This document shows, one piece after another, positions 22,895-29,204 of a stretch of 33,063 bases of DNA. The notes beneath the pieces are model-generated. The model saw only the letters and a list, made by a program, of their open reading frames with translations, did not search any database and was not told the origin of the DNA. This stretch comes from Clostridiales bacterium (GTDB lineage: Bacteria; Bacillota; Clostridia; Lachnospirales; Lachnospiraceae). Both the position numbers and the translations under genes were made by a program. The DNA lies in contig JAJPYF010000146.1 of NCBI GenBank assembly GCA_021205085.1, forward strand, positions 1-33,063. The letters are read 5' to 3'. How positions within the stretch are numbered: the first letter of the stretch is position 1; each line of letters begins with the position of its first letter.

Positions 22895-23206
22895 CTATTT
22901 CATTTTGATATCGATACTCACACCGGCCGGCATCTCCAGTCTGCTCAGCGCATCGACTGTCTTCTGCGTCGGTGCAATGATGTCGATGAGTCTCTTGTGA
23001 GTTCTCTGCTCGAACTGCTCGCGGGAATCCTTGTACTTGTGTACGGCGCGGATGATTGTCACCACTTCCTTCTTTGTGGGAAGGGGCACCGGTCCGCTCA
23101 CCTGGGATCCGTTTTTCTTCACAGTTTCGATGATTTTCTTCGCCGATGCATCCACCATCTCGTGGTCATAGGCTTTCAGAATGATTCTCATGACTTGGTT
23201 TGCCAT
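22895..23206 (-). CDS. rpsJ: 30S ribosomal protein S10
   Basis: Start chosen at [76 protein letters not shown]; 103 aa. The upstream in-frame extension is leader sequence. Confidence 0.97.
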
Positions 23207-23421
23207 AAAAAAAGTCGCCTCCTTTTCGCACTTTTGTTCAGTACGACAAGCGGTGACTGTACACTCTCCCGTGTGTTTCATCTTATCTCCACACGGCATC
23301 GACCTCTCGGCCTAACTTCGTACAGTGACTTGTCGTCAGTTTCCTAACTTGACATTCGCTCCACGGAAAACCTGCCACGGCGGGCAGCAACCTCACGCTT
23401 CTTCGCTATCATGCCACAGCA
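23207..23421 (-). promoter_or_regulatory. structured 5' leader of the S10 operon (candidate cis-regulatory RNA)
   Basis: Stems: 23243-23250/23329-23336 (ACGACAAG/CTTGTCGT), 23256-23262/23320-23326 (ACTGTAC/GTACAGT), 23269-23275/23290-23296 (CCGTGTG/CACACGG), 23301-23312 (minus GGCC-GAGA-GGTC), 23335-23353 (GTC-A-AGTT AGGA AACTGAC), 23372-23387 (CTGCC/GGCAG), 23210-23235 (hairpin with SD in the loop). Confidence 0.65.
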
Positions 23422-23427
23422 TCAGTT

Positions 23428-23456
23428 ATTTTAATTGATTGCGATTCAAAATGCAA
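23428..23456 (-). promoter_or_regulatory. candidate S10 operon promoter (TTGCAT-17-TAAAAT)
   Basis: Minus strand TTGCAT TTTGAATCGCAATCAAT TAAAAT, about 220 nt upstream of the rpsJ ATG. Confidence 0.65.
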
Positions 23457-23589
23457 GCACTTTTTATTCCTGCCGGAGATAAAATTGTATTTTTTTAAGT
23501 ACAATCTGTTTTCTGATTTGCATATGGAAAAAACCGGTTCGCTATAGTATGATACATTACAGAAAATATTGCAGGGAAAGGAAGCCGCC

Positions 23590-24453
23590 ATGTGGATTGC
23601 AGATAAATGGAAGGATTACGAGGTCATTGACTGTTCGGGAGGAGAAAAAGTGGAGCGCTGGGGCGCCTACACCCTCGTGCGTCCGGACCCGCAGGTAATC
23701 TGGGAGACTCCCCGGACTGCAAACGGATGGAAGCATCCGAACGCGCACTATCACCGCAGCAAAAAGGGCGGCGGAGAATGGGAATTTTTTGACCTTCCGC
23801 AGCAGTGGAGCATCCGATACCCCGCTCTCAGCCTGACCTTCAACCTGAAACCGTTCAGCTTCAAGCACACCGGCCTTTTCCCGGAACAAGCCGCAAACTG
23901 GGACTGGTTCTCCGAAAAGATCCGAAAAGCCGGCCGGCCGGTCCGGATCTTAAATCTCTTCGCCTACACCGGCGGTGCAACGCTCGCCGCCGCTGCGGCC
24001 GGAGCCGCCGTGACCCATGTGGACGCCTCCAAAGGCATGGTCCAGTGGGCAAAAGAAAACGCAGCCTCCTCCCGCCTTGCGGATGCCCCCATCCGCTGGC
24101 TCGTGGACGACTGCGTCAAGTTCGTGGAACGGGAGATCCGCCGCGGGAACCACTACGACGCCGTCATCATGGATCCCCCCTCCTACGGCCGCGGCCCCAA
24201 AGGAGAAATCTGGAAAATCGAGGACTGCATCTACCCGCTGGTAAAGCTGTGCACCCGGCTCCTGTCCGATGATCCTCTCTTTTTCCTCATCAACTCCTAC
24301 ACCACCGGCCTGCAGCCGGCAGTCCTCGCCTACATGCTCGGCACCGAAATGCAGCCGTATGGCGGCACCGTCACCGCAGAAGAAATCGGACTGCCCGTCA
24401 CCGCAAGCGGCCTTGTGTTGCCGTGCGGCGCATCCGGCCGTTGGGAAATATAA
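23590..24453 (+). CDS. class I SAM-dependent rRNA methyltransferase-like protein (RlmI/RlmK-like fold)
   Basis: NLFAYTGGATLAAAAAGAAVTHVDASKGMVQWAKENA (SAM motif) and AVIMDPPSYGRGPKGEIWK (catalytic loop). ATG at 23590 preferred over 23569, with SD AAAGGAAG. Confidence 0.85.
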   Translation: MWIADKWKDYEVIDCSGGEKVERWGAYTLVRPDPQVIWETPRTANGWKHPNAHYHRSKKGGGEWEFFDLPQQWSIRYPALSLTFNLKPFSFKHTGLFPEQAANWDWFSEKIRKAGRPVRILNLFAYTGGATLAAAAAGAAVTHVDASKGMVQWAKENAASSRLADAPIRWLVDDCVKFVEREIRRGNHYDAVIMDPPSYGRGPKGEIWKIEDCIYPLVKLCTRLLSDDPLFFLINSYTTGLQPAVLAYMLGTEMQPYGGTVTAEEIGLPVTASGLVLPCGASGRWEI

Positions 24454-24472: not shown

Positions 24473-26065
24473 TTACTTCTCCCTCAGCGCCTTCCGGTAC
24501 TCCATCGGGCTGACCGAATAAATCTGCTTAAAGGCATCCACAAAGCGCCGCACATTATTATAACCCACCCGCTCACCGATCTCATACGTCTTGTAATCCG
24601 TCTCCCGCAGCAGCCGCAGTGCTTCATCCATGCGGATTGAGGTCAGATACGCCTTGTAGTTCTGCCCGGTCTCTTTTTTGAACATGGCGCTGAAATAATT
24701 CTGGCTGACACAGGCCACCGAGGCCAGCTCCTTGATAGAGAGATCCTTATTATAATTCTGGCGGATATAGCGCTTCACATCCTCGATCAGCACCTTATCC
24801 TCGGATCTGCCCTTGGCATAAACCCGCTGAATCAGATCTTCATAGTGCGCATGAACACATTTCTTCAGGTTCGCCATCGTGTACTGTGCATATACCTTCT
24901 GCTGAAGCTCGTCCTGCATCTCATAGAAGTCCATATCCAGCAGGCGATACTGATTCAGCCTAAACCCGAGGTCTCCGGCAAACGTCATGGTCCGCATAAC
25001 GACCGCATCCCAGTTTCCGTAATGAATCGACTCAATATCATCCATGATCCGGTCGATCCAGTCCATCACATGCTCATCCTTGGCGATGATCGCACGGAAT
25101 GCCTGTTCCACATCCTCCTTATAATTCTCAAAAGAGACATGGTATTCCCGGTGAATCTTTGACGCATCAAGGATGGTCTTCTCCTCAAAATGACAGAGTC
25201 CGAACGCGAATTTCGCTTCCTTATAAGACTGCAGCATTTCCGACGGCTCATCTGTCGCCGTGCCGATCCCCATACAGAGTTCCACTCCGCACTCCCTCTC
25301 GACCTTGTCCCGGATCGGCTCCACATATTTCTCCGCAAACGCCTCCCGATCCTCATTCGGAAAGACGCCCATGAGATGCAGGGCATCCTCATCCTTTTTA
25401 ATGATAAATCCGATCTTTTGCGAACCAAACGCCTCCGACAAACGGTTAAACACAGAAAACCGCGTCAGATTAAACTGCCCGAATGACTCCTCGTTCAATC
25501 TGGCCGCCACGTCCGGCCGGATGCCGGCACTGATGCCGACAAAAAAGCGGTCGCGAAGGTCAATCTGCTCCTCCCGGAACATCTGATACAGATCCTCGTT
25601 CTCATAGTTTCTTCCATTATTAATGTCCTCGAACAGCTTCTGGAACTCATCCTTCTCCGGTTTGAAAATCTCGGCCGTGTTCTGCTCCTCCAGAATCTGA
25701 AGCGCCTTTTTCACGGCATCCTCCAGATCCTTTGCCCCCACCGGCTTTAAGAGATAATCCACCCCCCCATTTTTGATCGCCTCCTGCGCATAGGAAAACT
25801 CCTGATATGCGCTGACAAAGATAAACTTCGCCTTTCCGCCGTGCTCATTGTACCGGCGCAGCACCTCCAGTCCGCTGATGCCGGGCATCTGGATATCCGC
25901 CACCACGACATCCGGCTCCTCGCGCAGAATGCACTCCATCAGCTCTGTCCCGTCATTGGCTTCCGCGACAATCTCAATCCCGAGCGCCTCCCAGTCAATC
26001 AGTCTTTTTAAACCTCTCACGATCACTCTCTCATCATCCGCAATGATTGCTTTTCGCATACTCAA
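24473..26065 (-). CDS. YesN-type response regulator (receiver plus AraC-type HTH)
   Basis: N-terminal receiver (AIIADDERVIVRGLKRLIDW...DVVVADIQMPGISGLEVLRRY...KPVGAKDLE) and AraC HTH (IKELASVACVSQNYFSAMFKKETGQNYKAYLTSIRMDEALRLL...GYNNVRRFVDAFKQIYSVSPMEYRK). Confidence 0.95.
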   Translation of the reverse strand: MSMRKAIIADDERVIVRGLKRLIDWEALGIEIVAEANDGTELMECILREEPDVVVADIQMPGISGLEVLRRYNEHGGKAKFIFVSAYQEFSYAQEAIKNGGVDYLLKPVGAKDLEDAVKKALQILEEQNTAEIFKPEKDEFQKLFEDINNGRNYENEDLYQMFREEQIDLRDRFFVGISAGIRPDVAARLNEESFGQFNLTRFSVFNRLSEAFGSQKIGFIIKKDEDALHLMGVFPNEDREAFAEKYVEPIRDKVERECGVELCMGIGTATDEPSEMLQSYKEAKFAFGLCHFEEKTILDASKIHREYHVSFENYKEDVEQAFRAIIAKDEHVMDWIDRIMDDIESIHYGNWDAVVMRTMTFAGDLGFRLNQYRLLDMDFYEMQDELQQKVYAQYTMANLKKCVHAHYEDLIQRVYAKGRSEDKVLIEDVKRYIRQNYNKDLSIKELASVACVSQNYFSAMFKKETGQNYKAYLTSIRMDEALRLLRETDYKTYEIGERVGYNNVRRFVDAFKQIYSVSPMEYRKALREK

Positions 26066-27867
26066 GGCTCCTTCCAGATCGGCAATGTAAATGTTATGAC
26101 TGTTCCCATTCCCTTTGTACTCTGTACCGTATATCCGTATTCTGCGCCGCAGTTCAGCTTGATCCGGTCATACACATTCTGCATGCCGATACTGGCTGTT
26201 CCGTCCGACTCAATCGTGCCAACCTCATGGTTCTCAAGAGAATCCATAATGTGCCGCACACCTTCCTCGTCCATGCCAACGCCGTCATCCATCACCACAA
26301 TCTCCAGATGATCGCTCTTTCTCTCCACGCGAATCGCCACCGCGCCATAGCCTTTTTTCTCTCGAAGGCCGTGACGAATCGCATTCTCCACCATGGGTTG
26401 GAGAATCAGCTTCGGGATCATCAGCGTCTGGTCCTCGTCTTTCAGATAGACCATCAGCGATATCCTCTCCTCATAGCGGATCCGCATCATCACGAAGTAT
26501 TCCCGTATGGAGTCGATCTCATCCTTCAGACAGACCCGCTCCGACTGGGGGCCCATAACATACCGAAGCTGCTTTGCCAGGCTCTCCAGCAGCTGCGCTG
26601 TTTTCCGGTCATTCTGCTCCAGGGCGGTCATGCGGATAATATCCAGCGAATTGTACAGGTAGTGCGGCTGAATCTGCATTTTCAGGGCATTCATCTCCGC
26701 GTCCTGCCGACAGATCTGCGCCACATACACCTGATTGATATAATCCGTCAGCCTCTCCGTCATGTGGTTAAACCCATCCGCCACATATTCCATCTCATCA
26801 TTTGTGTCCAGTTCCACCCGGACATCCAGATTCCCCTGCTCCACCTCTTCCATGGCCGCCTTCAGTTTCCTCGTCGGCTCACTCATCCAAATGGAAAACA
26901 CCATATACAGAATCAGAAGGAACGCACCCGCAAAGGCGACAATCAGAATCAGAATCGAAACGCTCTGATAAAAAGCCCCCATAATATCGCTGTTTTCCAT
27001 GATCAGAACCGCATAGGCATCTACACCGGAAATTTTCTGGTAAAAGACCCACTGACTGCCGATTTTTTCATAGCCGCTGCCGCCGTCGAGCAGCTCTTCA
27101 CAGAAAGAAAGCGGATGGCTGCTTCCCAGATAATCCCCGGTATCGCCGCTGTAGATGTAGGAGGAAGCCGCCGGGCTGTACACATAAAAGCTGCCTATGT
27201 TCAGACTGGATTTCTCAATCAGCTCCTCAATATCATCGACATTGATATCCGCGTACAGTGTCGCCAGCCGCTGACTGCATGTCGTCTCAATGGAAGTCAC
27301 ATCCATATAATTGCGGACAAGGCTGAAAATATAATCCTCCGAGCTGACACAGATCTCCGCTTCAGGAAATGTGCCGAACAGCATCATCCCGGTCAGACTG
27401 TCCCCTTCCTGATAGAAATCCATGGTCGTAAATGACTCGGCGCCGTTTCTAAGCGTTTTGCCCTGACTGTAATACAGGCTGTAGACATTTCCGTATGTAT
27501 CCACCAGCCGGAGGGAGGAAATAAACTCACTCTTTGCCATGATATCGCCGAGCGCCTCCCGGACGGTGAGCTCACGTTCAGACCGCTCCGCCGTTACATC
27601 CGTCAAAACCTCCGCCAGTGTGCTCCCGTCCGAATCCTGATAATCATACAATTCGCCCATGGCCTCATCCACACTGTCCATGAGATCCTCTATATTGTTC
27701 GCCACATACACGGTCATATCTGAGTAAGCCGCCGTCATGCTGTCTCGAAGCAGCCCGCTGTAGCGCAGGAAGAAAAACAGGCTTAAGAGCAGCAGCGGAA
27801 TCAGCCCGAAAAAAATAAAGGCGACCGTCATTTTGGAAAAAGTTGTCCGGTATTTCTTTTTACTCAT
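26062..27867 (-). CDS. YesM-type membrane sensor histidine kinase (HAMP, His_kinase, HATPase_c)
   Basis: Start MSKKKYRTTFSKMTVAFIFFGLIPLLLLSLFFFLRYS; extracytoplasmic sensor; MQIQPHYLYNSLDIIRM phosphoacceptor motif; ATGA overlap with the SBP gene upstream and the regulator downstream. Confidence 0.94.
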   Translation of the reverse strand: MSKKKYRTTFSKMTVAFIFFGLIPLLLLSLFFFLRYSGLLRDSMTAAYSDMTVYVANNIEDLMDSVDEAMGELYDYQDSDGSTLAEVLTDVTAERSERELTVREALGDIMAKSEFISSLRLVDTYGNVYSLYYSQGKTLRNGAESFTTMDFYQEGDSLTGMMLFGTFPEAEICVSSEDYIFSLVRNYMDVTSIETTCSQRLATLYADINVDDIEELIEKSSLNIGSFYVYSPAASSYIYSGDTGDYLGSSHPLSFCEELLDGGSGYEKIGSQWVFYQKISGVDAYAVLIMENSDIMGAFYQSVSILILIVAFAGAFLLILYMVFSIWMSEPTRKLKAAMEEVEQGNLDVRVELDTNDEMEYVADGFNHMTERLTDYINQVYVAQICRQDAEMNALKMQIQPHYLYNSLDIIRMTALEQNDRKTAQLLESLAKQLRYVMGPQSERVCLKDEIDSIREYFVMMRIRYEERISLMVYLKDEDQTLMIPKLILQPMVENAIRHGLREKKGYGAVAIRVERKSDHLEIVVMDDGVGMDEEGVRHIMDSLENHEVGTIESDGTASIGMQNVYDRIKLNCGAEYGYTVQSTKGMGTVITFTLPIWKEP

Positions 27868-29204
27868 GACGCGCCTCCCGCTTCTGACCGGTTCCATGCT
27901 TTCTGAATCTGCTGCAGGCCCTCCTCCACGGAGCAGTCTCCGTTCATGATCTGCTGCACCAGCTCCAGCATGTTCTTTTCAAAGTCCTCCGGCGTATCCT
28001 CATTCCCGATATAAACGGAAACGCGCTCATCCGCGGCCTGAAATGCCTCCCACGCATCCTCAAGGACAGAGCCCTCCTCATAGTCTGTCTGCACGCCCGT
28101 GAGAGGGAATGTTCCGGACGCCTCGCAGAGCTCCGTATACGCATCATCTGAGTAAAACCATGAGAGGAATGTCATCGCCGCCTCGTATTTCTCCTCATCC
28201 CCGGCGCACTCCGCCGTCACCGACCAGAAGGTGTCCAGATTATCCGTGGCGTAGATTGTACCGGATTCGTCCGGCACATAAAACCAGCCGAGATCCATCT
28301 CCGAATTCAACTGTTGAATCGCCGCCGCGGTCCACGGTCCGGTATAGATCAGGGCAACCTCGCCCTCCGACATCATGTAGGAAAGGCTGGTATCCGTCGT
28401 GGACAGCCATGAGGTATTCACATATCCCTGCGCACAGAGATCATACAGATGCCCCATCATGACCTCCGCCTCCTCATTTGTCCACGCCACTTCTCCGGCA
28501 CTGCATTTTTTCAGCCAGTCCTCGTCCACCGTGAGAATGTCCGTGTGGAAAAAGTGATTCACCCAGAACTCCATATGCCACAGATCGGATCCTCCGATGC
28601 CGATCGGGGTGACCCCGTTGTCCCTCAGCGTCTGACAGATTGCTAGAAAATCATCGTAGGTTTCCGGCTCATCCAGCCCGTACTCCTCAAAAAGGGTCCG
28701 ATTGTAGAGAATGCCCCAGGGCGACTCTACGGCGCCGACGCCGTACACACTCCCGTCATAGGTATAGACAGAGGAGACCAGAGAGGCGACCTCATCCGTA
28801 ATCTCCCCGAGGAGTCCGCTCGCCGCGTAAGCTTCCGGCGTTTTCAGCTGGACGATATCCCCCAGCTCCCCCCGTGCGATCCTCTGCGTCAGAATATCCT
28901 CATAGACGCTATCCTCGTAATTGACCTCGTAATTGATTTTGATATCCGGATACATCTCCTCAAATTCCCGAACCGCATTCTCGATGGCGGAATTCCACTG
29001 GGGGTTCTGATAAGCGTAGACAAGCTCCAGCTCGATCTGCTCCTCAGCCGATCCGGTCTTCATATCCGCTGATTCCTTCCGGCTGACAAAAATATCATAG
29101 ATCAGAACAACGCACAGCCATGCCAGAATCAGGAAGAAGACCAGAATAATGCCTGTGATTTTTTCGGGAAATTTCGGTAATTTTTTTCTTCGTTTTTCTC
29201 TCAT
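27864..29204 (-). CDS. extracellular solute-binding protein (family 1 sugar-type SBP), apparently anchored by an N-terminal TM helix
   Basis: TM segment ITGIILVFFLILAWLCVVLIYDIFV without a good lipobox; SBP features QNPQWNSAIENAVREFEEMYPDIKINYEVN, YGVGAVESPWGILYNRTLFEEYGLDEPETYDDFLAICQTLRDNGVTPIGIGG. Confidence 0.9.
   Translation of the reverse strand: MREKRRKKLPKFPEKITGIILVFFLILAWLCVVLIYDIFVSRKESADMKTGSAEEQIELELVYAYQNPQWNSAIENAVREFEEMYPDIKINYEVNYEDSVYEDILTQRIARGELGDIVQLKTPEAYAASGLLGEITDEVASLVSSVYTYDGSVYGVGAVESPWGILYNRTLFEEYGLDEPETYDDFLAICQTLRDNGVTPIGIGGSDLWHMEFWVNHFFHTDILTVDEDWLKKCSAGEVAWTNEEAEVMMGHLYDLCAQGYVNTSWLSTTDTSLSYMMSEGEVALIYTGPWTAAAIQQLNSEMDLGWFYVPDESGTIYATDNLDTFWSVTAECAGDEEKYEAAMTFLSWFYSDDAYTELCEASGTFPLTGVQTDYEEGSVLEDAWEAFQAADERVSVYIGNEDTPEDFEKNMLELVQQIMNGDCSVEEGLQQIQKAWNRSEAGGAS

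Follow-up and report, generated by a model that had tools for sequence, protein, structure and literature searches.

Does the transcript leader in front of rpsJ regulate the S10 cluster, the largest ribosomal protein (r-protein) cluster, and through which parts of the RNA would it do so? The question was raised by a 33,063-nt stretch of DNA from a member of the Lachnospiraceae (hereafter the window), in which rpsJ (22895–23206, minus strand), encoding ribosomal protein S10, is the first gene of the cluster and is followed by rplC, rplD, rplW, and rplB (NCBIfam). The sequence between the putative transcription start and the rpsJ ATG (23206–23204) occupies positions 23207–23421 of the minus strand. 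A first-pass annotation had described it as a leader of several stems, probably bound by an r-protein of the same operon, and had left its catalogue status undecided. All the pairings named there were found on the minus strand, and a fold computed for the plus strand was set aside because the element lies on the other strand. Our analysis gives good support to an autoregulatory leader of the S10 operon, half of which turned out to be catalogued already.

Putative promoter and catalogued aptamer domain

The 5′ limit of the leader was placed by means of its promoter. A −35-like hexamer TTGCAT (23451–23456) and a −10-like hexamer TAAAAT (23428–23433) are separated by 17 nt on the minus strand, in the arrangement proposed before, and because of this promoter at 23456–23428 the transcript probably starts near 23421, which would also be the approximate end of the leader. 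The pair of hexamers fell below the threshold of a simple consensus promoter scan. The layout TTGnnn-15/19-TAnnnT was nevertheless present at a nearly fixed distance 5′ of the aptamer in 97 of 104 relatives, vs 8.7% in shuffled upstream sequence. The putative 5′ end of the transcript carries a CUGUGGCA box (23412–23419, minus strand), which adjoins the edge of the Rfam model described below, lies outside it, and appears as CUGUGRCA in 76 of 104 relatives (among loci L001–L159). The GUGRC of this box could pair with GUCAC of the junction arms; both sides vary little.

On the other side of the promoter, the S10 operon has its intergenic region in common with a divergent gene for a SAM-dependent RNA methyltransferase-like protein (23569–24453, plus strand), and the start of the same neighbor is visible in relatives L009 and L044. 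Beyond the divergent gene, consecutive genes for an AraC-type response regulator, a sensor histidine kinase, and a sugar ABC substrate-binding protein (24473–29204, minus strand) make up an ordinary carbohydrate-uptake two-component set, as judged from family matches.

A search of Rfam with cmscan assigned positions 23330–23411 (minus strand) to RF03136, the S10-Clostridia ribosomal protein leader, with a score of 92.5 bits (E 4.8e-18) against a gathering cut-off of 35.1 bits. The match spans the full-length model (1–81) and lies in the 5′ UTR of the S10 cluster, and no other Rfam family gave an above-chance match in the leader. The two 5′ hairpins seen earlier belong to this aptamer domain. 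P1 (23361–23398, minus strand, from the Rfam structure line) holds the pairing CUGCC/GGCAG, and P2 (23331–23354, minus strand, from the structure line and from folds), UGUC-AA-GUUAG-GAAA-CUGAC-GACA, includes the hairpin first read as GTC-A-AGTT AGGA AACTGAC (23353–23335). The results ruled out that the whole structure is uncatalogued; the RF03136 model, however, reaches just the start of the junction arm, and the three-way junction (23336–23243) and everything from there to the rpsJ ATG, including the alternative hairpin and the U-tract described below, lie outside Rfam coverage. The uncatalogued stretch that separates the aptamer from the ATG measures 123 nt.

P2 can form in two registers of similar support, each of which pairs in about 90–98% of cells. 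Its GACA segment is also part of the 5′ strand of P4, a helix of the junction. The Rfam register (UGUC/GACA) excludes P4, whereas the register read in the first-pass annotation leaves most of P4 possible.

Hits to RF03136 occurred in 184 of 200 genomes from the window's family, 225 of 295 from its order, and 154 of 399 from its phylum; the genomes of B. subtilis and L. lactis, which served as controls, carry the element too. In relatives in which the start was located, rpsJ lies 3′ of the match; a second match in genome G770, considered as a home other than rpsJ that might give a clue to the ligand, again precedes rpsJ and rplC. Eckert and Weinberg (2020, PMC7247131) regard RF03136 as an extension to Clostridia of the S10 r-leader that Yao et al. 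(2007) had described for Firmicutes. The literature searched named no experimentally shown ligand for the Firmicutes S10 leader. A leader-peptide attenuator was also considered for the aptamer region and rejected, the short ATG...TAG frame over the aptamer of the window losing its ATG in relatives (GGCATGATAGC to GACATTGATAGC).

A three-way junction between the aptamer and rpsJ

Downstream of the aptamer, a two-segment long-range stem had been proposed to enclose two hairpins. Both segments are present: ACGACAAG (23336–23329) can pair with CTTGTCGT (23250–23243), and ACTGTAC (23326–23320) with GTACAGT (23262–23256). In the RNA, the 5′ arm of the junction, ACGACAAG UC ACUGUAC (23320–23336, minus strand), consists of the 5′ strands of P4 and P5, and the 3′ arm, GUACAGU CACCG CUUGUCGU (23243–23262, minus strand), of the 3′ strands of P5 and P4. 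Between the arms lie the hairpins P6, GGCC-GAGA-GGUC (23301–23312, minus strand), and P7, CCGUGUG...CACACGG (23269–23296, minus strand). The P6 arm varies across the family, so that the GAGA tetraloop hairpin is confined to close relatives. The 3′ side of P7, ACACNCGG, is strongly conserved, and the native pairs of P7 beat 300 of 300 permutations. The leader as a whole is more stable than its dinucleotide shuffles (z −2.67).

Almost without exception, the rpsJ leaders that we collected from the window's order (about 155 sequences, among them 97 distinct arm pairs) retain this downstream part. Of 145 extracted leaders, 123 gave a match to the arms; the leaders with no match came from outside the order except for two, in which the arms have diverged. 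Throughout the family and the order we found a conserved chain that starts with (A/G)CGACAAG(A/G)UCACUGUAC and a variable middle ending in ACACNCGG, continues with GU(A/G)CAGUCACC(G/A)CUUGUCGU(A/G)CU and a loop, and ends with AGU(G/A)CGAAAAGGAGG(C/G/A)GACUUUUUUUAUG; the junction is the pairing between the first and third segments of the chain. Mimicry of rRNA by the ACACACGG segment is not claimed, short matches of this kind being expected by chance.

In 113 distinct rows, the proportion of cells that pair is 96.9% for P4 and 99.2% for P5. Because most arm positions hardly vary, co-variation was assessed by a permutation test, which ignores relatedness and compares the duplex energy of the two arms as they occur together in each sequence with that of arms redealt among the sequences (300 permutations). 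The native arms beat all 300 permutations with the 97 distinct arm pairs and with sets dereplicated to 37, 24, and 14; when only 8 dereplicated pairs were left, 13 of 300 permutations reached the native mean. Compensatory changes span the whole helix in several lineages, namely ACGAUG/CAUCGU (L114 and L160) and ACGACG/CGUUGU (L120 and L176), and further ACUGUAU/AUACAGU (L178), CACUGCU/AGCAGUG (L188), and CCAG/CUGG (L190). Judged by this comparison of related leaders, the three-way junction is real, and its arms co-vary. Many arm positions are almost invariant, and part of the conservation may therefore be for sequence.

An alternative hairpin with the Shine-Dalgarno sequence and a U-tract

A second partner for the junction 3′ arm GUCACCGCUUGUCGUACU is AGUGCGAAAAGGAGGCGAC, a complementary segment that includes the Shine-Dalgarno sequence AAGGAGG (23218–23224, minus strand) and is followed by exactly UUUUUUU (23207–23213, minus strand) and then by the AUG. 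The resulting alternative hairpin, AGUCACCGCUUGUCGUACU-loop-AGUGCGAAAAGGAGGCGACU, spans 23207–23258 (minus strand) together with the U-tract. Its 5′ strand overlaps the junction 3′ arm, its 3′ strand contains the Shine-Dalgarno sequence, and we propose it to be a fused intrinsic terminator and Shine-Dalgarno sequestor. The hairpin alone was predicted at −18.3 kcal/mol in the window; over 127 distinct relatives its mean energy was −16.2 kcal/mol and its mean z-score −2.9, and in 122 of the 127 the Shine-Dalgarno sequence is paired within it. The upper stem CGUACU/AGUGCG co-varies strongly, with double changes in 26 cells along with 12 further pair types, and the lower stem (GUC/GAC, CC/GG, and CUU/AGG) is retained in 98–100% of cells, its base GUC/GAC being replaced by CAG/CUG in L114, L121, L161, L166, and L171. 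None of 300 permutations was as good as the native hairpin strands at 115, 27, or 16 sequences. In one lineage (L188, L189, and L191), P5 (CACUGCU/AGCAGUG) and the U-tract are kept, P4 is apparently lost, and the alternative hairpin is only weak.

Comparative evidence of this kind makes the strongest case against chance. It is highly improbable that the segment 3′ of the aptamer is an ordinary conserved UTR or a DNA-level signal devoid of RNA function: high sequence identity, which such a reading would explain, does limit co-variation at many positions, but the compensatory changes already contradict it, and the permutation tests on both helices and the folding z-scores also stand against it. 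Improbable as well, though to a lesser degree, is an extended or second protein-binding domain in the junction, whose bound protein would block the ribosome with no strand exchange. A role of that sort would fit the conservation of ACACNCGG, GUACAGUCACC, and CGAAAAGGAGG beyond pairing needs, the recurrence of a segment similar to ACACNCGG in the leaders L080, L089, and L094, and the direct abutment of the aptamer on the Shine-Dalgarno sequence in distant leaders; yet the co-variation seen in the alternative hairpin is independent of the junction, and such a role has no need of it. The alternation of the junction 3′ arm with the hairpin that carries the Shine-Dalgarno sequence and the U-tract makes the junction look like an expression platform, and not simply like the protein-binding fold that had been assumed at first.

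The energies of the two folds were computed for the window. With the junction enforced, the leader reached −71.9 kcal/mol and the Shine-Dalgarno sequence was fully unpaired; with the hairpin enforced, it reached −73.0 kcal/mol and the Shine-Dalgarno sequence was mostly paired, the two folds being nearly isoenergetic. A transcript ending before the 3′ strand of the hairpin was predicted to fold into the junction. The predicted energies would match the needs of a co-transcriptional switch and are no proof of one by themselves.

The U-tract has a length of 7 in 112 of 127 distinct relatives. In the window and its relatives it stands directly after the terminator-like hairpin, as expected of an attenuator; it goes with the platform, being absent from all distant leaders that lack the arms, and none of the other CDSs checked in the window has a T-run longer than 4 within the 22 nt 5′ of its start. 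A simple terminator scan did not report the hairpin, and the lower stem has two conserved mismatches (A.C and G.A) in nearly all sequences, from which it follows that this is not a canonical strong terminator. These mismatches, the position of the Shine-Dalgarno sequence inside the hairpin, and the leaders L080, L089, and L094, in which the same arm logic is seen with no U-tract, are what would be expected if the two folds competed solely over Shine-Dalgarno exposure, the U-tract serving as an unstructured or translation-enhancing spacer and termination being absent. We regard such a purely translational switch as rather unlikely, but as a serious alternative, since a U-run of mostly exactly 7 directly 3′ of the stem is kept across the order, is missing from distant leaders without the platform, and precedes no other checked CDS of the window.

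Proposed switch and interchangeable platforms

The identity of the aptamer, the co-variation of both pairings, the near-equal energies of the folds, the placement of the Shine-Dalgarno sequence, and the U-tract, all read from the sequence, led us to consider it fairly probable that the leader is a two-domain autoregulatory RNA, in which the RF03136 aptamer is followed by a 3′ expression platform that switches a fused terminator and Shine-Dalgarno sequestor. When no protein is bound, the 5′ arm GACAAG-UC-ACUGUAC would pair with GUACAGUCACCGCUUGUC once the latter has been transcribed. In this ON state the junction would act as antiterminator and antisequestor, RNA polymerase passing and the Shine-Dalgarno sequence staying free. 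An excess of r-protein would hold the aptamer, and P2 would claim the GACA strand of the junction 5′ arm; the freed arm GUCACCGCUUGUCGUACU could then pair with AGUGCGAAAAGGAGGCGAC. In the OFF state, the hairpin could end transcription at the rpsJ start because U7 comes at once after the stem, and in molecules that escape termination the same hairpin would mask the Shine-Dalgarno sequence. We infer that the two folds are in competition in vivo, that transcription does terminate, and that the switch runs in this direction. The second P2 register, which coexists with most of P4, would weaken the step of strand competition. As to the ligand, L4 appears most likely by precedent, a best guess made only because L4 is the regulator of the E. 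coli S10 operon.

The proposed anti-antiterminator/antiterminator/terminator logic under r-protein control is the same as that of the L10(L12)4 attenuator in the B. subtilis rplJL leader, for which the scheme has been shown (Yakhnin et al., 2015, PMC4538822). As in rplJL, mutually exclusive antiterminator and terminator pairings are found here, both of them conserved. The operon, the protein, and the sequence are different, however, and unlike in rplJL, the proposed terminator hairpin here also includes the Shine-Dalgarno sequence and reaches as far as the start codon. The E. coli S10 leader serves the same operon as the leader studied here. In that system, L4 acts on transcription and translation through partly overlapping sites, and NusA-dependent pausing at an attenuator hairpin is part of the termination mechanism (PMC10931766), whereas the hairpin in our leader itself contains the Shine-Dalgarno sequence. 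The rpsJ motif RLC-47-1 of Peptostreptococcaceae is likewise a candidate ribosomal leader before rpsJ in Clostridia; it was reported from three genera of another family (PMC11109978). A described platform for the S10 leader was not found in the literature searched; the downstream stems may have been drawn before, in Yao et al. (2007) or in the supplements of PMC7247131.

Elsewhere in the phylum the picture changes. Most leaders there have no junction, and P2 (e.g., GUCCG...CGGGC) runs directly into GAAAAGGAGG, so that protein binding would occlude the Shine-Dalgarno sequence. In L080, L089, and L094, the junction logic is written in different letters: GCGAC.UUAAGAC occurs with GUCUUAAGUCGC and GCGACA.GGGGAA with UUCCCCUGUCGC, and in L089 and L094 the segment UUCCCC has two possible GGGGAA partners, one in the 5′ arm and one at the Shine-Dalgarno sequence. 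Since these three leaders have no U-tract, their action would be limited to translation; the U-tract sets the window's order apart. Long structured stretches between the aptamer and the Shine-Dalgarno sequence were seen in L194, L195, and L197, which represent other lineages of the class.

We give about an even chance to the broader view that one r-protein aptamer is used throughout the phylum with interchangeable platforms: most distant lineages would rely on direct occlusion of the Shine-Dalgarno sequence, some on an antisequestor that affects translation alone, and the window's order on a combined intrinsic terminator and sequestor hairpin. If this is true, a single binding event would shut the S10 cluster at two levels in that order. 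The leader itself is known, and what is uncatalogued is its strongly conserved expression platform, which points to a possible extension of the Rfam model for the window's order. With a likely switch placed beside a known aptamer, the candidate leader becomes a mechanism that can be tested through its defined ON and OFF pairings, and the comparison of lineages would offer a clear example of a single protein-binding RNA combined with different platforms.
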